A stretch of 37,627 bases of DNA from Acidimicrobiaceae bacterium (GTDB lineage: Bacteria; Actinomycetota; Acidimicrobiia; Acidimicrobiales; Bog-793). Position 1 is the first letter of the stretch; every line of letters begins with the position of its first letter. The position numbers were made by a program, and so were the translations under genes. The notes under the pieces are model-generated. The model ran no database searches. It was not told where the DNA came from and saw nothing but the letters and a program-made list of their open reading frames with translations. The stretch covers positions 1 to 37,627 of the forward strand of contig DAHUXW010000030.1 of NCBI GenBank assembly GCA_027306925.1, read 5' to 3'. Below, in pieces: positions 4,716 to 27,571 of this stretch.

Positions 4716-4757
4716 GATACACCATGTGCTTCGCAGGGCGAAGTCCGATACATCGTG
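4716..4757 (+). repeat. pair of direct repeats GATACAYCRTG, candidate operator
   Basis: GATACACCATG at 4716-4726 and GATACATCGTG at 4747-4757 are 31 bases apart, close to three helical turns, so a regulator could contact both on one face. They stand out as A/T-containing words in a GC-rich region upstream of the nucleoside importer. Which regulator binds is unknown; the PucR-like protein of this window is one candidate. Confidence 0.4.
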
Positions 4758-4938
4758 CATCTTGATCGCCCACAGGGCGGGCCCGATGATGGCGTGTCCG
4801 GACGGCACCCGGGTGGCGTGTGGCCGCACCGGCCCGCAGGTCGCACCGGGTTGCGCGCGAGCACGAGGTGGACCGGTGTCGAGGAGCCGTCCGAGGCGAG
4901 AGCCCGTGCCGGCACGAACAGCTAAGGAGACGATGGCC

Positions 4939-13326: not shown

Positions 13327-14718
13327 TCAGCTCCCCGTGTAGTGGCGGTCCGCGACCGACAGCGCCTCGTCGAGGATGGCGAGCCCCTCGCGCGCCTCGT
13401 CCTCCGAGGTGGTGCACGGCGGGACCACGTGCAGCCGGTTGAAGTTCGTGAACGGGAGGAGCCCGCGCTCGCGGCAGGCGGCCGCGAGCTCGGCCATCGG
13501 CGCGTTCGCGCTGCCGCTCGCGTTGTACGGCACGAGCATCTGCCGGCTCGCCCGGTCGCTCACGAGCTCGAGCGCCCAGAAGACGCCGAGCCCGCGCACC
13601 TCGCCGACGACCGGGTGCCGCTCGGCGAGCTCGCGAAGACCCGGTCCGAGGACGCGCGCGCCGAGGTCGAGCGCGTGCTCGATGATCCCCTCGTCGGCCA
13701 TCGCGCGCATCGTCGCGACGGCGGCAGCGCACGCGAGCGGGTGCCCCGAGTAGGTGAGGCCGCCCGGGAACGCGCGCTCGGCGAACGTCTCGAAGATCGC
13801 GTCGCTCACGACGACGCCGCCGAGCGGGACGTACCCGGAGTTCACGCCCTTGGCGAACACGACGAGGTCGGGCTCCACGCCGAAGTGGTCGAACGCGTAC
13901 CACGCCCCGGTGCGCCCGAAGCCGGCCATGACCTCGTCGGCGATGTAGACGATGCCGTGGTCGTCGCAGATCCGCCGCACCCCTGCGAGGTAGCCGGGCG
14001 GGGGGACGAGGACGCCCGCGGTGCCGACGACGGACTCGAGCAGGATCGCCGCGACGGTTCCCGGCCCCTCGAGCTCGACGACCTCACGCAGGTGCGCGAG
14101 CGCCCGCTCGCACTCCTGCTCCTCGGTCTCGGCCCAGAACGGGGAGCGGTAGAGGTAGGGGCCGAACGTGTGGACGTGGCCCGCCACGCCGACGTCGTTC
14201 TGCCAGCGGCGCGGGTCGCCGGTCGCGACGATCGCCGCCGCCGTGTTCCCGTGGTACGAGCGGTAGGTCGAGACGACCTTCTGGCGCCCGGTGTGGACCC
14301 GCGCCATGCGGATCGCGTTCTCGATCCCGTCGGCGCCGCCGTTCGTGAAAAAGACGTGGTTCAGCCCGTCGGGCGCCCGCTCGCTGACGAGGCGGGCGGC
14401 CTCGGAGCGGACGTCGTTCGCGTACTGGGGCGCGATCGTGCAGAGCCGGTCCGCCTGCTCCTTGACCGCCGCGACGACCTTCGGGTGCTGGTGGCCGATG
14501 TTCGTGAACACGAGCTGGGAGGAGAAGTCGAGGTAGCGCCGTCCGTCGTAGTCGAACACGTACGAGCCGGAGGCGCCCGCGATCGCCATCGGGGCGATGA
14601 GCCGCTGAGCGGACCAGGAGTGGAACACGTGCGCGCGGTCGAGCGCGGCGACCCGCCGCCCCTCCTCGGGGTTGGCGACCGGGGCGGCCGGTGCGAGGCG
14701 GTGGTCGGTCGCGCTCAT
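13327..14718 (-). CDS. class III aminotransferase, probable beta-alanine/beta-aminoisobutyrate transaminase
   Basis: The 463-residue PLP enzyme has the expected features: LDFSSQLVFTNIGHQHPKV near the N-terminus, the phosphate-binding region FFTNGGADGIENAIRMAR, and STYRSYHGNT. ADEVMAGFGRTG contains the PLP-pyridine Asp, and VVFAKGVNSGYVPLGG contains the Schiff-base Lys. Omega-amino acid aminotransferases of this type move the amino group of beta-alanine or 3-aminoisobutyrate to pyruvate or 2-oxoglutarate. The products are malonate semialdehyde or methylmalonate semialdehyde, the substrates of the MmsA-like enzyme in the same operon. Its ATG overlaps the stop of the LLM oxidoreductase gene (ATGA), so the two are translationally coupled. 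Substrate is inferred from context. Confidence 0.88.
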   Translation of the reverse strand: MSATDHRLAPAAPVANPEEGRRVAALDRAHVFHSWSAQRLIAPMAIAGASGSYVFDYDGRRYLDFSSQLVFTNIGHQHPKVVAAVKEQADRLCTIAPQYANDVRSEAARLVSERAPDGLNHVFFTNGGADGIENAIRMARVHTGRQKVVSTYRSYHGNTAAAIVATGDPRRWQNDVGVAGHVHTFGPYLYRSPFWAETEEQECERALAHLREVVELEGPGTVAAILLESVVGTAGVLVPPPGYLAGVRRICDDHGIVYIADEVMAGFGRTGAWYAFDHFGVEPDLVVFAKGVNSGYVPLGGVVVSDAIFETFAERAFPGGLTYSGHPLACAAAVATMRAMADEGIIEHALDLGARVLGPGLRELAERHPVVGEVRGLGVFWALELVSDRASRQMLVPYNASGSANAPMAELAAACRERGLLPFTNFNRLHVVPPCTTSEDEAREGLAILDEALSVADRHYTGS

Positions 14719-15734
14719 GACGCTGCGAGCCCCGCGCGGGACACGGCCGGGATCACGTGCTCGCCATAGGCGGCGAGCGTCGCGTCCTTCGCGTCGTGCT
14801 GGAGGTAGAGGGCGAACTGGTCGACCCCGAGGTCCCGCATCGCCGTGAGCCGCTCGACGTGGCGCTCGACCGGACCGAGCACGCAGAAGCGGTCGACGAT
14901 CTCGTCGGGGACGAAGTCCGTGTGGGCGCTCCCCGCGCGCCCGTGCTCGTTGTAGTCGTAGCCGGTCCGGCCCGTGATGTAGTCCGTCAGCGCTCTCGGC
15001 ACCGCTCCTCCGTTCTCTCCGTAGCGGGCGACGATGTCCGCGACGTGGTTGCCGACCATCCCGCCGAACCATCGGCACTGGTCGTACTGGTGTGCGAGGT
15101 CGTCCCCCACGTACGCGGGCGCCGCGACGCAGACCGCGAGGGCGTCCGGGTCGCGCCCGGCGCCCTCGGCCGCGGCGCGCACGGCCGCGATGCTCCACGC
15201 GATGACGTCGGGGTCCGCCATCTGGAGGATGAACCCGTCGCCGACCTCGCCGGCGAGCGCGAGCGCCTTCGGGCCGTACGCGGCGACCCAGACCTCGAGG
15301 CGGCTCGACGGGTTCCACCGGAAACGGAGCGCCGTGCCGTTGACGGTCACGACCTCGCCGTTGGCGAGACCGCGGATCACCCCGATCGCCTCGCGCAGCG
15401 TCGCGAGCGTGGTCGGGCGACCCGCGGTCACGCGCACCGCGGAGTCGCCGCGCCCGATCCCGCAGATCGTCCGGTTCCCGAACATCTCGTTCAACGTCGC
15501 GAACAGCGACGCGGTCACGGTCCAGTCGCGCGTGGCCGGGTTCGTGACCATCGGGCCGACGACGATCCGCCGCGTCGTGGACAGGATCTGGCTGTAGATG
15601 ACGAAGGGCTCTTCCCAGAGCAGGTGCGAGTCGAAGGTCCACGCGTGGCTGAATCCGTGCAGCTCGGCCTGGCGCGCGAGCTCGACGACCCGCCACGCGG
15701 GCGGGTCCGTCTGGAGCACGATCCCGAAGTCCAC
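14715..15734 (-). CDS. LLM-class flavin/F420-dependent oxidoreductase in pyrimidine operon
   Basis: The 339-residue protein is a luciferase-like (TIM-barrel) oxidoreductase. Landmarks are MDFGIVLQTDPPAW, HAWTFDSHLLWEEPF, GPMVTNPATRDWTVTAS, LNEMFGNRTICGIGRGDSA and WVAAYGPKALALAGEVGDG. From memory these fit the CPS_4043 subfamily (TIGR03842), usually annotated as F420-dependent. Relatives include F420-dependent reductases such as Mer and oxygen-using flavin enzymes such as the uracil oxygenase RutA. The substrate is unknown. It lies between mmsA (32 bases) and the aminotransferase (ATGA overlap) in an operon that lacks dihydropyrimidine dehydrogenase, so a role on uracil/thymine or a pathway intermediate is plausible. 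The start is GTG. Whether F420 or FMN is used cannot be decided here. Confidence 0.85.
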   Translation of the reverse strand: MDFGIVLQTDPPAWRVVELARQAELHGFSHAWTFDSHLLWEEPFVIYSQILSTTRRIVVGPMVTNPATRDWTVTASLFATLNEMFGNRTICGIGRGDSAVRVTAGRPTTLATLREAIGVIRGLANGEVVTVNGTALRFRWNPSSRLEVWVAAYGPKALALAGEVGDGFILQMADPDVIAWSIAAVRAAAEGAGRDPDALAVCVAAPAYVGDDLAHQYDQCRWFGGMVGNHVADIVARYGENGGAVPRALTDYITGRTGYDYNEHGRAGSAHTDFVPDEIVDRFCVLGPVERHVERLTAMRDLGVDQFALYLQHDAKDATLAAYGEHVIPAVSRAGLAAS

Positions 15735-15766
15735 CTCGACCCCCTCGTCCCGTCGTCCGCGACCGC

Positions 15767-17269
15767 TCAGCGCGTCCCGGGGAACCCGAGGTCGATCGTG
15801 GAGGCCGCCGGCTCGGGCCAGCGCGACGTCACGACCTTCGTGCGCGTGTAGAAGTCGACGCCGGCCGGGCCGTACATGTGGGCGTCGCCGAAGAGCGACG
15901 CCTTCCAGCCGCCGAAGCTGTAGTAGGCGACCGGGACCGGGATCGGCACGTTCACGCCGACCATGCCGCAGTCGACCTCGAACTGGAACCGGCGCACCGC
16001 ACCGCCGTCACGGGTGAAGATCGCGGTGCCGTTCCCGTACGGGTGCGCGTTCACGAGCGCGATCGCCTCGTCGAGGGTGCCCGCACGCACGACGGAGAGG
16101 ACGGGGCCGAAGATCTCCTCGTCGTAGACGCGCATTCCCGGGCGCACCCCGTCGACGAGCGACGCGCCGAGGTAGAAGCCGCGCGGGTCCGCCGCGTCCA
16201 TGAGCTCCTGGGTGCGCCCGTCGACGCGCACCGAGGCGCCCTCGTCCGCCGCGACCGCGAGGTAGCTCGCGACCTTGTCCCGGTGCTCGGCGGTCACGAG
16301 CGGGCCCATCTCGGCGCTCGGGTCGGACCCGGGCCCGACCCGCAGCTCCGGAAGGCGCTTCGCGATCGCGTCGACGAGCGGGTCTGCGATCGACCCGACC
16401 GCGACCACGACCGAGATCGCCATGCACCGCTCGCCGGCGGAGCCGTACGCCGCGCTGACCGCGGCGTCCGCCGCGACGTCGACGTCGGCGTCCGGGAGCA
16501 CGACCATGTGGTTCTTCGCGCCGCCGAGCGCCTGGACGCGCTTGCCGGCCGCGGTCCCGCGCTCGTAGACGTGGCGGGCGATCGCCGTCGAGCCGACGAA
16601 GCTGACCGCGGCGATACCGGGGTCGTCGAGGATCGCGTCGACCGCGACCTTGTCACCGTGGACGACGTTGAGCACGCCGTCCGGCAGGCCCGCCGCGCTG
16701 AACAGCTCGGCGAGGCGCACGCTCGCGGACGGGTCCTTCTCGCTCGGCTTGAGCACGAACGCGTTCCCGCACGCGATCGCGTTCGCGATCATCCACAGCG
16801 GGACCATCATCGGGAAGTTGAACGGCGTGATCCCGGCGACGACCCCGAGCGGCTGGCGGATCGAGTAGAGGTCGACGCCCGTCGACGCCTGCTCCGTGAA
16901 GCCGCCCTTCAGCAGCGGCGCGATGCCGCAGGCGAACTCGACGTTCTCGAGGCCGCGCGCGAGCTCGCCGGCCGCGTCGGACTCGACCTTTCCGTGCTCG
17001 GAGCTCACGAGCGCGGCGAGCTCCGACCGGTGCTCGTGCACGAGCTGGCGGAACGAGAACATGACCTCCGTGCGCCGCGAGAGCGAGACGGCCCGCCACG
17101 AGCGCTGTGCCCCGGCTGCGATCCGCACGGCCGCGCCGACCTCCTCGGCCGACGCGAGGTCCACCTCTGCCTGCACCTCGCCGGTCGACGGGTCGTACAC
17201 CGGGCCGCGACGCCCGGACGTCCCCGGGACGTGCGCGCCGCCGACGTAGTGCTCGATCTTCCGTGTCAT
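15767..17269 (-). CDS. mmsA: CoA-acylating methylmalonate-semialdehyde dehydrogenase
   Basis: The 500-residue enzyme is an ALDH-fold dehydrogenase of the MmsA type. It oxidises (methyl)malonate semialdehyde with NAD+ and CoA, releasing CO2 and giving acetyl-CoA from uracil-derived or propionyl-CoA from thymine-derived semialdehyde. Visible are GVVAGITPFNFPMMVPLWM (142-160), the cofactor Lys in FVLKPSEKDPS, FVGSTAIARHVYERG, ALGGAKNHMVVLPDAD (where CoA-acylating members lack the usual general-base Glu), and the nucleophile Cys282 in GERCMAIS. EEIFGPVLSVV and VPVAYYSFGGWKASLFGD complete the family pattern. The ATG follows GGAG at about ten bases. It sits 83 bases after the dihydropyrimidinase stop. 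Confidence 0.94.
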   Translation of the reverse strand: MTRKIEHYVGGAHVPGTSGRRGPVYDPSTGEVQAEVDLASAEEVGAAVRIAAGAQRSWRAVSLSRRTEVMFSFRQLVHEHRSELAALVSSEHGKVESDAAGELARGLENVEFACGIAPLLKGGFTEQASTGVDLYSIRQPLGVVAGITPFNFPMMVPLWMIANAIACGNAFVLKPSEKDPSASVRLAELFSAAGLPDGVLNVVHGDKVAVDAILDDPGIAAVSFVGSTAIARHVYERGTAAGKRVQALGGAKNHMVVLPDADVDVAADAAVSAAYGSAGERCMAISVVVAVGSIADPLVDAIAKRLPELRVGPGSDPSAEMGPLVTAEHRDKVASYLAVAADEGASVRVDGRTQELMDAADPRGFYLGASLVDGVRPGMRVYDEEIFGPVLSVVRAGTLDEAIALVNAHPYGNGTAIFTRDGGAVRRFQFEVDCGMVGVNVPIPVPVAYYSFGGWKASLFGDAHMYGPAGVDFYTRTKVVTSRWPEPAASTIDLGFPGTR

Positions 17270-17352
17270 CTCGGTGCTCCTGTGGGTCTCGTGCCTCGGT
17301 CTGCCGGCCCGGGCACGCTGTGGACCGGGCCGTTCCGCGCGCGCCCGAGCGC

Positions 17353-18771
17353 TCAGATCAGGTAGTCGGACAACGAGCGCTTGACGAAGCGGCCGTGCCC
17401 GGCGCGCCCGAAGTACTCGCCCGCGTCGACGACGACCGTACCGCGCGAGAGCACGGTGTCGACGTGGCCGGCGACTCGCACGCCCTCGTACGCGGAGTAG
17501 TCCATGTTCATGTGGTGGGCCCGTGCGGAGATCACGGTCTCGCCGTGCGGGTCGTACACGACGATGTCGGCGTCGGAGCCGGGCGCGATCACGCCCTTTC
17601 GCGGGTAGCAGCCGAACATCCTCGCGGGCGTGGTCGAGCAGAGCTCGACCCAGCGGGCGAGCCCGATCCTCTTGTCGACCACGCCCTGGAAGATGAGGTC
17701 CATGCGGTGCTCGACGCCGCCGATGCCGTTCGGGATCCTCGAGAAGTCGCCGAGCCCGAGCTCCTTCTGCTCCTTGTAGCAGAACGGGCAGTGGTCGGTG
17801 CTCACGACCGACAGGTCGTTCGTGCGCAGGTACCGCCAGAGCTCGTCGTGGTGCCCCTCGGCGCGCGACCGCAGCGGGGTCGAGCACACGTACTTCGCCC
17901 CCTCGAAGCCCGGGGCGAACAGGTGCTCCTCGAGCGAGAGGTACAGGTACTGCGGGCACGTCTCGCCGAAGACGTTGAGCCCCTCGTCGCGCGCGGCGGC
18001 GACGGTCGCGACGGCCTGCTTCGCCGACATGTGGACGACGTACAGCGGTGCGTGTGCGATCCGGGCGAGCATGATCGCCCGGTGCGTCGCCTCCTCCTCG
18101 GTCTCCCACGGGCGGGTGAGCCCGTGGTAGCCGGGCGCGGTCTCGCCGCGCGCGAGCGCCTGGGCGACGAGCACGTCGATCGCGATGCCGTTCTCGGCGT
18201 GCATCATCACGAGCGCGCCGTTCTCCGCGGCCTTCTGCATGCCGCGAAGTATCTGGCCGTCGTCGGAGTAGAAGACGCCCGGATAGCCCATGAACATCTT
18301 GAAGCTCGTGACGCCCTCGGCGACGAGCTCGTCCATCGCGCCGACGGCCGCGTCGTCGACGCCCGCGAGGATCTGGTGGAATCCGTAGTCGATCGCGCAC
18401 GCGCCTCCGGACTTCGCGTGCCACGCCGCGATCCCGTCGAGCACGGGCTCGCCCGTGTGGTGGACGACGAAGTCGATGATCGTCGTCGTCCCTCCCCACG
18501 CGGCGGCGCGCGTCCCGGTCTCGAAGGTGTCGGACGCCTTCGTCCCGCCGAAGGGCATCTCCATGTGCGTATGCCCGTCGACCCCGCCCGGCACGACGTA
18601 CTTGCCCGTCGCGTCGATCACGCGGTCCGCGCTGCTCTCGAGGTCGCTCCCGAGCGCGGTCGTCCCGGGCTCGAGCAGCGCGGCCACGCGCTCGCCGTCG
18701 ACGAGCACGTCCGCGGGCGCGGCACCGGTCGCGGACACGACGGTGCCCCCGTGGATGAAGGTCGTCGTCAT
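17353..18771 (-). CDS. hydA: dihydropyrimidinase (D-hydantoinase family)
   Basis: The 472-residue amidohydrolase opens the ring of dihydrouracil or dihydrothymine to N-carbamoyl-beta-amino acids. The binuclear zinc site is intact: His67 and His69 in GVDGHTHMEM, carbamylated Lys158 in SFKMFMGYPG, His191 in MMHAENG, His247 in VVHMSA and Asp326 in STDHCPF. NGIGGVEHRM and the C-terminal metal-domain return (GVIAPGSDADIVVYDP) are typical. Related hydantoinases or allantoinases share the fold. The neighbouring beta-ureidopropionase (31 bases upstream in the operon), MmsA and transaminase favour dihydropyrimidinase. The start is ATG at 18771 with no obvious strong ribosome site. Confidence 0.93.
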   Translation of the reverse strand: MTTTFIHGGTVVSATGAAPADVLVDGERVAALLEPGTTALGSDLESSADRVIDATGKYVVPGGVDGHTHMEMPFGGTKASDTFETGTRAAAWGGTTTIIDFVVHHTGEPVLDGIAAWHAKSGGACAIDYGFHQILAGVDDAAVGAMDELVAEGVTSFKMFMGYPGVFYSDDGQILRGMQKAAENGALVMMHAENGIAIDVLVAQALARGETAPGYHGLTRPWETEEEATHRAIMLARIAHAPLYVVHMSAKQAVATVAAARDEGLNVFGETCPQYLYLSLEEHLFAPGFEGAKYVCSTPLRSRAEGHHDELWRYLRTNDLSVVSTDHCPFCYKEQKELGLGDFSRIPNGIGGVEHRMDLIFQGVVDKRIGLARWVELCSTTPARMFGCYPRKGVIAPGSDADIVVYDPHGETVISARAHHMNMDYSAYEGVRVAGHVDTVLSRGTVVVDAGEYFGRAGHGRFVKRSLSDYLI

Positions 18772-18802
18772 CCGGGCCGCACCGCCCCGGCCGTCGCCGC
18801 GG

Positions 18803-19642
18803 TCACGGCTCCGTGAGCTCCGCGTACGCGTCGGGGCGGCGGTCGCGGTAGAAGGCCCAGCGCTCGCGCACCTCGCCGAGCAGCGCGAGGTCGAGATCGC
18901 GCACGACGACCTCCGGCGCGCCGGCGTCCGCGACGTCGCCGACGAACTTTCCCTCGGGGTCGACGAAGTAGCTCGTGCCGTAGAAGTCGTCGTCCCCGAG
19001 GGACTCGACGCCGACCCGGTTGATCGCGCCGACGAAGTACTCGTTCGCGACGGCCGCCGCGGGCTGCTCGAGCTTCCAGAGGTAGGAGGAGAGACCGCGG
19101 CTCGTCGCCGAGGGGTTGAACACGATCTCGGCGCCGTTCAGGCCGAGCGCCCGCCAGCCCTCGGGGAAGTGGCGGTCGTAGCAGATGTAGACGCCGATCC
19201 TGCCGACCGCGGTCGAGAACACCGGGAAGCCGAGGTTCCCGGGCCGGAAGTAGAACTTCTCCCAGAATCCCGCGACCTGTGGGATGTGGTGCTTTCGGTA
19301 CTTGCCGAGGTAGCGGCCGTCGGCGTCGACGACGGCCGCGGTGTTGTACAGGACGCCGGGCTGCTCCTCCTCGTACATCGGGAGCACCATGACGACCCCG
19401 AGCTCGGCGGCGAGCGCCTGGAACCGCTCGGTCGTCGGCCCCGGCACGCTCTCGGCGTAGGAGTAGTAGCTCGGCTCCTGGACCTGGCAGAAGTAGGGCC
19501 CGTAGAACAGCTCCTGGAAGCAGACGACCTTCGCGCCGCTCGCCGCCGCGTCACGGGCGTAGGCCTCGTGCGCCGCGACCATCGACTCCTTGTCCCCGGT
19601 CCAGCGGGCCTGGACGAGCGCTGCACGCACCAACGGGGCCAT
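18803..19642 (-). CDS. pydC: beta-ureidopropionase / N-carbamoyl-amino acid amidohydrolase (nitrilase superfamily)
   Basis: The 279-residue protein carries the nitrilase-superfamily triad: Glu44 in CFQELFYGPYF, Lys117 in GKYRKHHIP and Cys154 in VYICYDRHFPEG. The stretches FNPSATSRGLSSYLWKLE and YFVGAINRVG agree with the beta-ureidopropionase / N-carbamoylputrescine amidase group. In this operon it should hydrolyse N-carbamoyl-beta-alanine or N-carbamoyl-beta-aminoisobutyrate to the amino acid, CO2 and ammonia. The ATG at 19642 aligns with family starts; GGAAGG lies just ahead (19649-19654). It is first in the - strand operon and diverges from cdd. Confidence 0.9.
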   Translation of the reverse strand: MAPLVRAALVQARWTGDKESMVAAHEAYARDAAASGAKVVCFQELFYGPYFCQVQEPSYYSYAESVPGPTTERFQALAAELGVVMVLPMYEEEQPGVLYNTAAVVDADGRYLGKYRKHHIPQVAGFWEKFYFRPGNLGFPVFSTAVGRIGVYICYDRHFPEGWRALGLNGAEIVFNPSATSRGLSSYLWKLEQPAAAVANEYFVGAINRVGVESLGDDDFYGTSYFVDPEGKFVGDVADAGAPEVVVRDLDLALLGEVRERWAFYRDRRPDAYAELTEP

Positions 19643-19893
19643 GTGCACCTTCCGAGCGACGGTCGCGGGACCCTGGACGTCGGCGGGGACCGGAGTCCTG
19701 GACGGCCCGGACGGGCCGGGGACGCACGGGCACGCGTCGCCCGGGCCCCGGGACGATGTTATCGGCGTGCGGCGGCACGCACAACGCCGGGAGCGGGACG
19801 CTGCCGGTGCGTTCTTCCCCGTGCGACAAGGGATCCGCCGGCGCGTGCGGGCCCGCGGCGCCGTGGAGCGCGCCACGAGTAACGTGCCGGGGC
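19643..19893. promoter_or_regulatory. divergent control region between the pyrimidine-degradation and cdd operons
   Basis: These 251 bases lie between the starts of pydC and cdd and encode nothing convincing. They contain the palindrome CCCGGGCCCCGGG (19740-19752). The inverted repeat GCGTGC-N4-GCACGC (19765-19770/19775-19780) is nested in CGGCGT...ACGCCG (19763-19768/19784-19789). These are possible operator sites for a regulator controlling both operons. The cdd -10 box is at the right end. Confidence 0.45.
19880..19885 (+). promoter_or_regulatory. -10 element for leaderless cdd
   Basis: TAACGT ends eight bases before the cdd GTG codon, which has no Shine-Dalgarno sequence. This is the spacing expected if the first transcribed base is the start codon. 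Confidence 0.55.
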
Positions 19894-22793: not shown

Positions 22794-23432
22794 GTGCACA
22801 CCTCCGCGGCGGCGCTCGCGGCGCTCGCGATCGCCTGCCCGGTCCTCACGATCGGGCGTGGCGTGCCCCAGGCGGTCCGATTGATGCGCAGGGGCGCCGA
22901 CGGGGTGTCGATCCTCACGTGGCAGCTCTGGCTCCTCGTCGGCGAGCCGTGGATCGCGTACGGCGTCATCGCGCACGTCCCGGCCGAGGTCGTGACCAAC
23001 TGTGCGACGACCGTCGTCGGCGCCGTGACGCTCGTGCTCGCGACGCGCGTCGCGGGGACGACCGCACGCGCGGTCACGACCTCGCTCGTCGCGTCGGGAG
23101 CGATCGTGCTGCTCGTCGCCGTGAGCGTCCGCGCGCACGACCTCGCCCCGATCTCGGTCGTCGCGGTCACCGGGTCGATCGCGATGTACCTCCCGCAGGC
23201 AGTCCGGACGTTCCGCGCGCCGTCGGTCACCGGCGTGTCGATGTCGACCTGGGCGCTCGCGCTCGCGACCTCGGTCGCGTGGGGCGCCTACGGCTTGCTC
23301 ATCGCGAAGGTCCCCGTGTGGCTGCCGAGCCTCGTCGCGGTGCCGACGTCCGCGGCGATCGTCGTCCGCCTCTACGCGCGCCGCGCGGGTTCGCCCGAGC
23401 GGATCGTCGCAAGCGCGAGCAGCGCGACGTGA
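22794..23432 (+). CDS. two-repeat PQ-loop (SWEET-like) membrane protein
   Basis: This 212-residue protein has about seven hydrophobic segments and two PQ-loop repeats. The first holds GVPQAVRLMRRGADGVSILTW and the second YLPQAVRTFRAPSVTGVSMSTW, joined by a linker helix. Bacterial SemiSWEETs normally have only one repeat of about 90-100 residues, so this is a full double-repeat form like eukaryotic SWEETs. The fold suggests passive transport of a sugar or other small molecule. The position after add, with a 13-base gap, suggests a purine/nucleoside-related cargo, but that is inference. It starts with GTG. The last 61 bases overlap the 3' end of the regulator gene on the other strand. Confidence 0.78.
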   Translation: MHTSAAALAALAIACPVLTIGRGVPQAVRLMRRGADGVSILTWQLWLLVGEPWIAYGVIAHVPAEVVTNCATTVVGAVTLVLATRVAGTTARAVTTSLVASGAIVLLVAVSVRAHDLAPISVVAVTGSIAMYLPQAVRTFRAPSVTGVSMSTWALALATSVAWGAYGLLIAKVPVWLPSLVAVPTSAAIVVRLYARRAGSPERIVASASSAT

Positions 23433-25003
23433 AGCGAGGCGAGTGACTCGACGGGGTCGAGGCGGACGCCGGCGACGGCCTCGATCCGCTCGAGCCGATG
23501 GTAGTACGCGGCGCGGCTGAGCCCGAAGTCGCGCGCCGCGGCCGCGACGTTCCCCCCGTGGCGGCAGAGCGCGCCGAGCGCGTCGACGAGGCGGTCGTCG
23601 GGCGCGGCGGCGTCGTGCAGGAGCAGCGCGCCGAGCTCGCGCTCGACGAAGCTCTGTAGCCGGGCGTCGTCGCGCAGCAGGTAGAGAAGCCCGCGGATCC
23701 GCACGTCCGGGAGCGCGAAGTACCCGCACTCGGGCGTCGCGTGATCGTCGGCGACGGAGGCGACCTGAACGGCCTCGAGCATCGAGCGGCGGGCGTCCTC
23801 CACGCGGGTGACCACCGACCCGGCGGCGACGACCGTGCGGCGCTCGCCGGCCCCCACCGCCTCCGCGCGGACCCGCTGCGCGAGCTCGCAGAGCGCGCGC
23901 GCCGCGTCGCCGGCGGCGTCGACGGACACGAGCAGGCCGATCTCGGCCTGCCGGAGCGCCCCGACGATCGCGGGCACACCGCAGGCGCGCGCGGCGCGCG
24001 CCGACAGCTCTGCCCGCCGCAGGTCGAGCGCCTGCGCGGCCAGCGGGCTCCCGGGCGACTCGTCCCGGAAGCGCACGACGACGCCCGCGAGCTGGCGAGC
24101 TTCGAGCGCGACGCCGAGCGCGCTCGCTCGTGCCGAGATCGCGCCGGGCGACGCCGCGCCGTGCGCGACGAGGTCCGCGAGCAGGCTCCGGTGGACGTGG
24201 CGCTCGAGCGACTCGCGGTCGCGCTCGGCGAGCCGCTCGATCGCGATCGCGCTCGCGCCGCGCTCCGCCACGAGGTACTGGTGCGCCGACGGCTCGCCGT
24301 CGGGGAGCAGCACGAGCCGGCCCCAAGGCTCGCCCTTCGCCGCGATCCTCGTGACGAGCCAGCCCTCCGGTGGCGCGACGCCGGTGCGCTCGGGGAAGGG
24401 CACCGCGCGCGAGCGGCGCTCCCAGCTCGCGAGGAGCCGCTCGGTCTCGCCGCCGGCGTGCGCGAGCACCTGGTGGCTGAGGTTCTCGAGCACCGCGGGG
24501 CACCGCGCACGGGCCGCGACCTCCCGCACGATCTCGGGGACCGACGCGCCGTCGAGGCTGAGCGCGGTGAAGACCTCGTGGATCTCCTTCGCCTGGCGCA
24601 GCTCGTCGAACTGCTCGTTCACGATCCGGGAGTGCACGGCCTCGGTGACCGCGACGTAGCGGACCTCGGTGCGCAGCTCGACGAGCGGCAGCCCGAGGCG
24701 CTCGGCCGCGCGCGCCATCGCCGGCGGCAGCCGGGAGAAGTGCCGGCCGAGCTCGACGACGATGCCGCACGCGCCCGCGACCGCGAGCTCCTCGACGTAG
24801 CGGGCGAGCCCGCGCGCGTCGTCGGGGAGGGCGATGCCGGTCGTGAGGATCAGCTCGCCGCCCTGGAGCAGGTGGGCGATGTCCGCGACCTCGCTCACGT
24901 GGACCCAGCGGACCGGGGCGTCGAGCCCGCCCGCCCCGGCGAGCACGCGGGGCATCCCCGCGGCGACGGCGGGCAGCGCGAGGACGTCGCGGACCGAGAT
25001 CAC
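23372..25003 (-). CDS. PucR-family transcriptional regulator
   Basis: The 543-residue protein has the three-part PucR layout. An N-terminal PucR sensor domain (about 3-120) contains VLAGAGGLDAPVRWVHVSE and GGELILTTGIAL. A central GGDEF-like/linker region follows. The C-terminal helix-turn-helix (PucR C-terminal domain) has HGGNVAAAARDFGLSRAAYYHRLERIE, with the rest to the end completing the dimer helices. PucR regulators control purine and related nitrogen-compound catabolism. Here the gene sits at the centre of the nucleoside island and is the only regulator seen, so it likely controls one or more of the operons. The GTG at 25003 begins the sensor domain. The gene overlaps the PQ-loop gene tail-to-tail by 61 bases. 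Confidence 0.9.
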   Translation of the reverse strand: MISVRDVLALPAVAAGMPRVLAGAGGLDAPVRWVHVSEVADIAHLLQGGELILTTGIALPDDARGLARYVEELAVAGACGIVVELGRHFSRLPPAMARAAERLGLPLVELRTEVRYVAVTEAVHSRIVNEQFDELRQAKEIHEVFTALSLDGASVPEIVREVAARARCPAVLENLSHQVLAHAGGETERLLASWERRSRAVPFPERTGVAPPEGWLVTRIAAKGEPWGRLVLLPDGEPSAHQYLVAERGASAIAIERLAERDRESLERHVHRSLLADLVAHGAASPGAISARASALGVALEARQLAGVVVRFRDESPGSPLAAQALDLRRAELSARAARACGVPAIVGALRQAEIGLLVSVDAAGDAARALCELAQRVRAEAVGAGERRTVVAAGSVVTRVEDARRSMLEAVQVASVADDHATPECGYFALPDVRIRGLLYLLRDDARLQSFVERELGALLLHDAAAPDDRLVDALGALCRHGGNVAAAARDFGLSRAAYYHRLERIEAVAGVRLDPVESLASLHVALLALATIRSGEPARRA

Positions 25004-25049: not shown

Positions 25050-25055
25050 ACCCTA
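25050..25055 (-). promoter_or_regulatory. candidate -10 box of the PucR-like regulator
   Basis: On the - strand, TAGGGT lies about 46 bases before the regulator GTG. It fits TANNNT and would give a leader of about 40 bases. Another possible box, TTATGG, lies closer (25035-25040). Confidence 0.35.
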
Positions 25056-25066
25056 CACAGCGTCTC

Positions 25067-25095
25067 TTGATCGCCCGGTGCCCGCCCCCGACAAT
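25067..25095 (+). promoter_or_regulatory. sigma70-like promoter ahead of the mosaic pseudogene
   Basis: TTGATC (25067-25072) and GACAAT (25090-25095) are separated by 17 bases, the best two-box promoter match in the window. It points to the + strand, back-to-back with the regulator promoter, into the aminotransferase remnant. It may be a relic of the intact gene's promoter. Confidence 0.45.
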
Positions 25096-25836
25096 GCGAG
25101 CGCTCCCGGGGCGACTGGCCCCGGTGCCCTGCGACGAAGGACGTGCCGCGCCGATGCCGGACGCGACGGTCTTCTTCGTGAACTCGGGCACCGAGGCCAG
25201 CGAGGCGGCGCTCCTGCTCCGTGCCACCGCCCGCCGCTCCGACCAGGTGCTCACACCGCGCTACAGCTACCACGGGCGGTCGTTCGCGACGACGTCGGTC
25301 ACCGGCAACCGCTCGTGGTCGGCCTCGAGCCTGAGCCCGCTGCGCGTGAGCTTCGTGCACAGCGGCGACCCCTACCGGAGCCCGTGGGCGTCGCGCGGCG
25401 ACGGTGCGCTCGTCGCGGCGTGCGCAGCGGACCTGCGCGAGGTCGTCGGGACGACGCCGTCGGGCGACGTCGCGTGCATGATCGCCGAGCCCGTCCAGGG
25501 CGTCGGCGGCTTCGTGGTCCCGCCGGACGGCTTCTTCGCCGCGACGCTCGTCGAGCCGGGCACGACGACCCCGGCGCCCGGTGCGGCGCGCCTCGCGCTC
25601 GACCACGCGAGGCGCGAGGGCGTCCTCGTCGGCGGGGGAGGGCTGCACGGGAACACGCTGCGCACCTCCCCGCCGCTCTCGATCTCCGACCGGGACGTGC
25701 GGCACGGCCTCGACGTGCTCGTCCACGTGCGCGCCCGCGGGGCGCCAGTCGCGATCGACGACTTCGGGCAGGGCGACTCGAGCCTCGCGCAGCTCCGCCG
25801 GCTCCCGGTGGACGTGCTGACGATCGACCGGGCCGC
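25094..25836 (+). pseudogene. mosaic remnant: class III aminotransferase pieces fused to an EAL-domain fragment
   Basis: One open frame strings together three unrelated-looking pieces. Bases about 25157-25548 encode the central part of an AGXT2-like class III aminotransferase (FFVNSGTEASEAALLLRA, RYSYHGRSFATTSVTG, DPYRSPW, CMIAEPVQGVGGFVVPPDGFF). About 25602-25722 encode its C-terminus (GVLVGGGGLHGNTLRTSPPL). The first ~100 residues and the whole PLP-lysine region are missing. About 25723-25836 then match the EAL phosphodiesterase core DDFG-x-G-x-SSL-x-x-LRRLPVD-x-L-x-IDR. Without the Schiff-base lysine it cannot be an active transaminase. The frame runs on only as antisense of the mutase gene. 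I read it as decayed DNA, though a short protein could still be made. Confidence 0.75.
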
Positions 25837-25840
25837 CCGA

Positions 25841-27571
25841 TCAGCGGGCGCAGCGGCGCGCGACGTCCGCCCGGAGCGCCTCGAGCAGCTCGGACGCCTC
25901 GCGGCGCGCGGCCGAGAGCTCGTCGCGGCGCACCGGAGGGGTCGTGACGAGCAGGTAGGCCTTGAGCTTCGGCTCGGTGCCGCTCGGCCGCACGACGACC
26001 CGTGCGCGGCCCCCGGCCCGCACGACGACCGCGTCGGTCGGCGGGAGCTCCCCGTCGCCGGTCGCGAGGTCGACGGACTCGGTGACCTCGAGGCCGGCGA
26101 GCGTGGCGGGCGGGTCGTGCCGCCAGCGCGCGACGACCCGCGCGATCTCGCTCGGCGCGTCCGGCCCGTCGAGGCGGAGCGACCACTGCGCGCTCTCGTG
26201 GACCCCGAGGCGGGACGAGAGGCCGTCGAGCAGGTCGGGCAGCGTCGTCCCGGACGACTTCGCGCGCGCCGCGAGCTCGGCCGCGACCACCGCGGCGGAC
26301 ACGCCGTCCTTGTCCGCGACCGCGTCGCTCACCGCGTAGCCGAGCGCCTCCTCGTAGCCGAAGAGCAGCCGGTGGCCCGGTCGCCGGGCCGCCGCGCGCG
26401 CGATCCACTTGAAGCCGGTGAGCGTCTCGACGTAGGCGACGCCCTGCTCCGCTGCGAGCGCGGCGAGCATGGTCGAGGACACGATCGTCGTCGCGACGAG
26501 CCGGTCAGCGCCCGAGCTATGGCCGACGAGGTGGTCGGCGAGGAGGATGCCGAGCTCGTCGCCGGAGAGCACGCGCCACTCGCCCGCCCGGGCGCCCGGC
26601 ACGGCGACGGCGAGACGGTCGGCGTCCGGGTCGTTCGCGACGACGAGGTCGGCGCCCGTGCGCCGGGCGTCCGCGATCGCGAGGTCGAGCGCGCCCGGCT
26701 CCTCGGGGTTCGGGAACGAGAGCGTCGGGAAGTCCGGGTCGGGCTCGGCCTGGGCGCTGACGACGAGCGGGCGGGCGAAGCCCGCGCGCTCGAGGAGGTC
26801 CGGCACGACCGCGTTGCCGACTCCGTGCAACGGCGTGTAGACGATCGCGAGCTCGCGCGGCGCGGCCGGGTCGACGAGGGCGAGCACCGCGTCGCGGTAC
26901 GCGTCGAGGACCTCCCGCTCGTCGACGGTCGCGCGCTCGGCGACGCGGCGGGGAGCGCCGCCGGGTTCCGCCACGACCGCCGCGGCCTCGGCGATCTGCG
27001 CGTCGTAGGGGGGGACGACCTGCGCGCCGTCGGCGAGGTAGACCTTCACGCCGTTGTCCCGCGCCGGGTTGTGGCTCGCGGTGACCATCGCCCCGGCGGC
27101 CGCGCCGAGGTGGCGCACGGCGAACGCGGTGATCGGCGTCGGGAGGGGCCGGGCGAAGCTCAGCGCGCGCACGCCATGCGCCGCGACGACCTCGGCCACG
27201 TCGTCCGCGTACTCCGCCGACCCGTGCCGGGCGTCGCGGCCGACGACGACGCCGTGCTCGGCGGCGCGCTCGCCCTGCGCCGCGACGACGCGCGCGAGCC
27301 CGGCCGCGGTCCGTCGCACGACGGCCCGGTTCATGCGGCCGGGCCCGGCGCCCATCTCGCCGCGGATGCCGGCGGTCCCGAACTCGAGCGGCCGGTCGAA
27401 GCGCTCGGCGAGCGCCGCGGTGTCGCCCGCCGCGAGGAGGGCCGCGACCTCCGCGCGCATCGCCGGGTCGGGGTCGTCGCGCATCCACGCCTCGGCGCGC
27501 GCGACGAGACCGGCGTCCGGTGCCGCGGCCCCCTGCGCGCCCGGTCCCGGCGCACCGGCCCGGGCGGTCAC
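25841..27571 (-). CDS. PGM2-type phosphohexomutase/phosphopentomutase
   Basis: The 576-residue alpha-D-phosphohexomutase family protein is in the long PGM2/PgcA branch. It has [13 protein letters not shown] (64-76), the phosphoserine loop [15 protein letters not shown] (Ser166), the metal loop DPDADR (Asp314, 316, 318), the sugar-binding GYEEALGY and the phosphate-binding [10 protein letters not shown]. Some enzymes of this branch act as phosphopentomutases, interconverting (deoxy)ribose 1- and 5-phosphate. That step is required between the phosphorylases and DeoC, and no deoB is present in the window. Glucose-phosphate mutase activity remains possible. The start GTG overlaps the PNP stop (GTGA), which ties the mutase directly to a nucleoside phosphorylase. 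Confidence 0.9.

Follow-up and report, generated by a model that had tools for sequence, protein, structure and literature searches.

Between a PucR-family regulator and a phosphomutase gene in the genome of an Acidimicrobiaceae bacterium (draft assembly GCA_027306925.1, 2.87 Mb in 170 contigs) lies a single open frame of 252 codons that spans pieces of an aminotransferase (AT) and a scrap of an EAL domain. The frame is found at 25094-25849 (+ strand) of the 37,627-nucleotide contig DAHUXW010000030.1, which was analysed as a whole and is called the window below, and it raises the question of whether it encodes an unusual fused protein or is the scar of a lost gene. The stretch is very probably a decaying remnant (pseudogene) of a transaminase that stood divergent from the PucR gene and that is paired with methylmalonate-semialdehyde dehydrogenase (MMSDH) in related genera.

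Composition of the open frame

The initial annotation had described two parts of an AT, with the PLP-lysine region missing between them, and an EAL fragment in one frame, and this composition was confirmed by Pfam, phmmer and alignment. Pfam assigned Aminotran_3 to the fused frame in two stretches (E 3.9e-21, above the cut-off) and EAL to residues 207-247 (E 9.6e-9, 35.4 bits versus a cut-off of 31.3). In phmmer searches against PDB chains the fused frame matched GABA transaminases in two separate collinear stretches (for example residues 134-253 and 382-450 of 3q8n). In a separate search, the EAL piece alone (39 aa) matched solved EAL domains with E 1.5e-6 and weaker.

The first AT piece, the central part before the PLP lysine, extends over 25149-25543 (+; DNA comparison and alignment) and shows 75% amino acid and 80% nucleotide identity to the intact AT of genome G033. 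The second, C-terminal piece extends over 25546-25723 (+; phmmer, DNA comparison and alignment). Alignment coordinates against each of G033, G011 and G004 place an in-frame deletion of 399 bp at the junction of the two (25544-25546, +), and the missing middle holds the PLP lysine (TFAKGLGNG region). About 100 codons of the AT N-terminus are also gone according to the alignment, and the 78 bp upstream of 25149 had no match anywhere in the AT. The EAL fragment of about 37 codons, with DDFG...LPVD.L.ID, lies at 25718-25834 (+; Pfam and DNA comparison), the DNA comparison placing it at about 25718/25726-25831; at its start it overlaps the second AT piece, whose end is uncertain, and pairwise comparison leaves the alignment of the joins ambiguous. 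Some 6 bp separate its end from the stop codon (25841, opposite strand) of the phosphomannomutase/phosphoglucomutase-family gene that bounds the scar (25841-27571, -; Pfam PGM_PMM I-IV, syntenic in relatives). An Rfam scan of the window gave no family at its gathering score.

The remnant shares two collinear stretches with class III aminotransferases (PF00202) of the GabT/acetylornithine type, whereas its orthologues have the whole domain and the remnant lacks both the PLP-lysine region and the N-terminus. Given that the PLP-binding lysine required in this family is deleted, no transaminase activity is possible for any product. The EAL scrap shares about 37 core codons, including DDFG and LPVD.L.ID, with the EAL domain (PF00563) and covers positions 137-177 of the 236 in the profile; a phosphodiesterase requires the complete domain with its catalytic residues, and with so few domain codons present no c-di-GMP phosphodiesterase activity is possible for any product. 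Compared with other EAL copies, DDFGTGYSS has become DDFGQGDSS in the scrap and LKID has become LTID, so that a lysine which we take to be catalytic is replaced by threonine.

The openness of the frame is weak evidence in itself, since the GC content of the stretch is 76%, 5% of shuffles are open across 252 codons, and the reading frame of the remnant contains no stop in more than 1,350 codons and runs antisense through both neighbouring genes. Both joins lie in one frame, for which the probability by chance is about 1 in 9, and this counts against decay.

The intact AT in related genomes

The locus was compared across 60 genomes including the window's own, of which 35 were in the same family and 2 in the genus. 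The scar adjoins a regulator, as had been noted from the start: an intact PucR-family gene (23372-25003, -; Pfam PucR 5.6e-40, HTH_30 3.3e-11, GGDEF_2 8.1e-8) divergent from the remnant, whose product is 82% identical to that of G001 (the sister in the same genus), 67% to those of G033, G027 and G016 (three species of another genus in the family) and 65% to that of G011. The gene order in G033 and G016 is thymidine phosphorylase, adenosine deaminase, PucR (-), AT (+), MMSDH (+), phosphomutase (-) and purine nucleoside phosphorylase (-), and then an amidase, a dihydropyrimidinase and an LLM oxidoreductase. G027 has the same order on a contig that starts inside the phosphorylase, and G011 has the divergent PucR and AT with the phosphomutase 4.8 kb further. 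The window has the flanks of the G033/G016 locus with the remnant alone in between. Inspection of the syntenic locus, which the initial annotation had called for, revealed two marks of a pseudogene: relatives (G033, G027, G016 and G011) carry an intact orthologue in the corresponding syntenic position, and essential parts have been lost (the N-terminus and the 399 bp with the PLP lysine).

The sister genome has the same flanks, and there the start codon of PucR and the stop codon of the phosphomutase lie 11 bp apart (locus L107, 6742-6755). The PucR gene there has no upstream region of its own, and its transcription may start at the phosphomutase promoter.

An intact AT with at least 52% identity to the G033 copy was present in 21 of the 60 genomes, in 14/35 of the same family and in 0/2 of the genus; the best matches to it in the window's own genome are paralogues at 37% and 41%. 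It stands beside MMSDH in G033, G027, G016 and G019, beside a ureidopropionase-like amidase in G004 and G022, and inside dihydropyrimidinase operons in G020 (AT-MMSDH-amidase-dihydropyrimidinase-LLM) and G052 (amidase-AT-dihydropyrimidinase-MMSDH-LLM). With intact orthologues at the same place beside pathway genes, the suggestion that an older transaminase of the pathway decayed here is the best reading, and its neighbour genes would suggest beta-aminoisobutyrate as a putative substrate. The label AGXT2-like, in contrast, is not shown: the intact orthologue matched PRK05769 and GabT/ArgD-type models best, all below cut-off among the best 25 NCBIfam matches, in a comparison that included no AGXT2 model, and its best scores against PDB chains were with racemases and GABA transaminases. 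Judged by these similarities it is a class III AT of the GabT/acetylornithine type.

A box with the pattern ACA-N3-TGT-N3-TTGA is located between PucR and AT in all four genomes with this layout (G033, G027, G016 and G011), and comparison with these intact-AT relatives identified its remnant, with one mismatch, at 25055-25070 (+; ACACAGCGTCTCTTGA). This bears on the idea that the AT remnant and the EAL scrap arrived jointly by insertion through horizontal transfer, with no resident gene before them. The lack of any counterpart to the EAL piece at the locus in relatives would fit such an event. The AT pieces, however, are found where relatives carry the gene intact, with the same orientation and behind the same conserved box. 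The synteny largely refutes insertion of the AT part, and we regard a joint arrival as exceedingly improbable.

Selection on the remnant

Constraint was estimated with a codon model on 182 codons from 10 sequences, in which synonymous sites are saturated and the remnant is a single lineage. On the first tree, omega was 0.152 on the remnant branch versus 0.035 elsewhere (2 delta lnL 7.48, with synonymous sites saturated), and omega = 1 was also rejected for the remnant (2 delta lnL 6.87), which counts against decay. With the remnant placed beside G033, G027 and G016 the values were 0.115 versus 0.032 (2 delta lnL 5.97, and 9.89 against omega 1). The first AT piece alone gave 0.120 versus 0.028 (2 delta lnL 7.08, and 5.04 against omega 1), and the second piece alone was uninformative (0.71). 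When the 10 terminal branches were tested singly, a raised omega exceeded 2 delta lnL 3.84 in the remnant alone; the branch of G011 came next (omega 0.095, 2 delta lnL 3.58), and G004 and G022 differed by a lower omega. Because ten branches were tested, the raised omega of the remnant counts as evidence of moderate strength. Of the 89 columns without variation among 9 near orthologues, the remnant was changed at 11 (12.4%), compared with 0 to 7.3% for left-out orthologues. Of the 47 columns without variation among all 18 intact orthologues it was changed at 1 (0.021), which is within the intact range.

The dN/dS check that had been proposed thus cuts both ways, in that omega is raised relative to the orthologues yet stays well below 1, with synonymous sites saturated. 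Most of the remnant branch was under constraint, since omega is below 1, and the mildly relaxed values of 0.12-0.15 against 0.03 suggest that a long period of constraint ended recently.

The omega well below 1, together with a frame open across three pieces, both joins being in frame and a promoter box that survives with one mismatch, would suit a real, expressed short protein with a new role, such as binding to an intact paralogue. However, the constraint is already below that of the orthologues, the frame is open in antisense far past the remnant, and the product would have neither the catalytic lysine of the AT nor most of the EAL domain with its LKID lysine. Moreover, conservation of the same fused frame in many genomes, named in the initial annotation as the sign of a real short protein, was not seen: no second copy was found, and the frame is present in one of the two genomes of the genus, with the whole stretch gone from the other. 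We consider such a protein very improbable, and marginally more so the particular case in which the fused frame is transcribed from the box-bearing promoter to give a new short protein, made of AT fragments and an EAL patch, with a new role.

Origin of the EAL fragment

At least two deletions, one of them joining unrelated genes, had been proposed in the initial annotation. Two or more deletions in the AT are borne out, but a simple join to a neighbour is not. The gap between AT and phosphomutase was read in the six relatives with both genes in the retrieved stretch (loci L108, L109, L110, L111, L113 and L115). It contained MMSDH or an amidase, except in G011, where it is occupied by an E1-E2 ATPase/hemerythrin region. 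An EAL gene was absent from the gap in 6/6, so that a resident EAL neighbour joined by simple deletion is unsupported and the piece probably has a source outside this locus. A tblastn search with the EAL piece in 10 relative loci gave nothing better than E 0.67.

Among 298 genomes of the order, the window's own included and with two candidates scored per genome, no recent EAL donor was found. The best DNA matches were 82% over 82 bases (G207) and 80% over 81-83 bases (G162 and G011), followed by 78% over 106 bases (G027) and 77% over 93 bases (own genome). These values also bear on the possibility that the joins, above all that of the EAL piece, are chimeric or collapsed in a draft of 170 contigs. 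The window's own genome contains many copies of the EAL core, inviting false joins, but a best own-genome match of only 77% over 93 bases means that the piece is not a collapsed repeat of another copy in the assembly. Furthermore, synteny with relatives and sister extends over both flanks, and the sister independently lacks the gene here. An assembly artefact therefore seems to us a very doubtful explanation. Returning to a genuine remnant, our guess is that the EAL fragment was captured at a break; the join is odd and explains nothing further.

A transaminase of a different lineage in the window

The window carries on its minus strand an operon (13327-19654) with the order ureidopropionase-like amidase (18803-19654), dihydropyrimidinase (17353-18771), MMSDH (15767-17260), F420-type LLM oxidoreductase (14715-15734) and, as the last gene, another class III aminotransferase of PRK06062 type (13327-14670). 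In trees, the window copies of MMSDH, dihydropyrimidinase and LLM oxidoreductase lie away from the syntenic genus and group with G052, which belongs to another family (supports 0.97, 1.0 and 1.0, respectively). The amidase tree gave the operon affinity a support of 0.19, with the G052 copy left out as too partial. These affinities suggest that the operon was acquired by horizontal transfer, presumably into rather than out of this lineage.

The PRK06062-type transaminase is likely the replacement for the lost AT, with substrates deduced from its neighbours. At a threshold of at least 61% identity the gene was found in 13/60 genomes, own included. The two transaminases are not strictly exclusive, since G019 and G046 carry both this type and the old AT. 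In the sister G001 the best match to the PRK06062-type gene was 45%, and the contig ends right after the LLM gene, where the transaminase gene would lie. The pathway seems to run on the other MMSDH and transaminase, and the old AT-MMSDH pair would therefore be dispensable.

A TIGR03842-type F420-dependent LLM oxidoreductase is found in the dihydropyrimidinase operon at the loci of the window, G001, G033, G027, G016, G020 and G052. It might supply the first step of pyrimidine breakdown, reductive or ring-opening, as a putative role; a literature search combining F420 with dihydropyrimidinase or uracil found nothing on such an LLM oxidoreductase.

History of the locus

Deletion-type bacterial pseudogenes can remain after displacement of a gene by a non-orthologous one. 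The remnant shares with such pseudogenes truncation, relaxed constraint, full loss in the nearest relative and a likely stand-in, and differs from them by the scrap of an unrelated gene joined in frame. As pseudogenes go it is ordinary, and its history is largely resolved. Synteny in relatives points to an ancestral locus in which PucR (-) stood divergent from AT (+) and MMSDH (+), bounded by the phosphomutase (-). The lineage would then have gained the amidase-dihydropyrimidinase-MMSDH-LLM operon, which shows affinity to another lineage and in the window ends in the different transaminase. The AT-MMSDH pair, now presumably redundant, would have been lost by deletions, which took the N-terminus, the 399-bp middle with the catalytic lysine and the end of the AT together with the entire MMSDH gene; these losses are visible in the window, and their place in the sequence of events is the most plausible one. 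An illegitimate event may subsequently have joined the scrap of an EAL gene. In the sister species deletion apparently ran to completion, leaving 11 bp. Here the apparent displacement of a transaminase by another, from a different lineage, can be followed within a nucleoside/pyrimidine-catabolism island through three stages: the related genus has the gene intact, the window has a mosaic scar and in the sister the gene is fully erased.

A candidate PucR regulon

In Corynebacterium glutamicum, the gene of a PucR-type regulator diverges from those of a class III transaminase and, next to it, a semialdehyde dehydrogenase (gabR-gabTDP; PMC7652997). According to that report, GabR has no GGDEF-like domain and gabD encodes succinate semialdehyde dehydrogenase (PMC7652997). 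The divergent PucR and AT-MMSDH of the window's relatives have the same layout, but the window PucR has a GGDEF_2 domain, the dehydrogenase of the relatives is MMSDH instead of succinate semialdehyde dehydrogenase, and the window locus has a destroyed transaminase gene and no longer any dehydrogenase. A GabR-type module of divergent PucR, transaminase and semialdehyde dehydrogenase is found in G033, G027 and G016, with a relic in the window. By analogy with GabR, the PucR protein may bind the candidate box.

The exact box occurred three times each in G033, G027 and G016 and once in G011, and a reversed control pattern gave zero in all six genomes searched. The three sites precede AT-MMSDH, amidase-dihydropyrimidinase-LLM and a BMP-family (PnrA-like), nucleoside-type ABC transporter operon (in G033, C117:5159, C117:10731 and C50:429, with counterparts in G027 and G016). 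The window has a one-mismatch box at 4750-4765 before its own BMP transporter, and a widened pattern found in the own genome this site and 25055-25070 alone (reversed control, 1); in the sister, one of the four sites of the widened pattern precedes the same BMP transporter gene. All these counts are descriptive because the pattern was read off the same sequences. Matches with at most two mismatches numbered 4 in the window versus 2.2 expected, and 19/100 shuffles reached 4, which is not above chance.

Literature searches on PucR with pyrimidine, beta-alanine, dihydropyrimidinase or MMSDH, and on chimeric pseudogenes, found no description of the locus or the box. The comparison thus proposes a candidate box and a small regulon for an uncharacterised PucR regulator, with the lost transaminase as one of three putative targets. 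A weaker box-like sequence, which may be due to chance, lies at 4719-4734, 31 bp before the box at 4750, and recalls the paired sites of GabR (PMC7652997).
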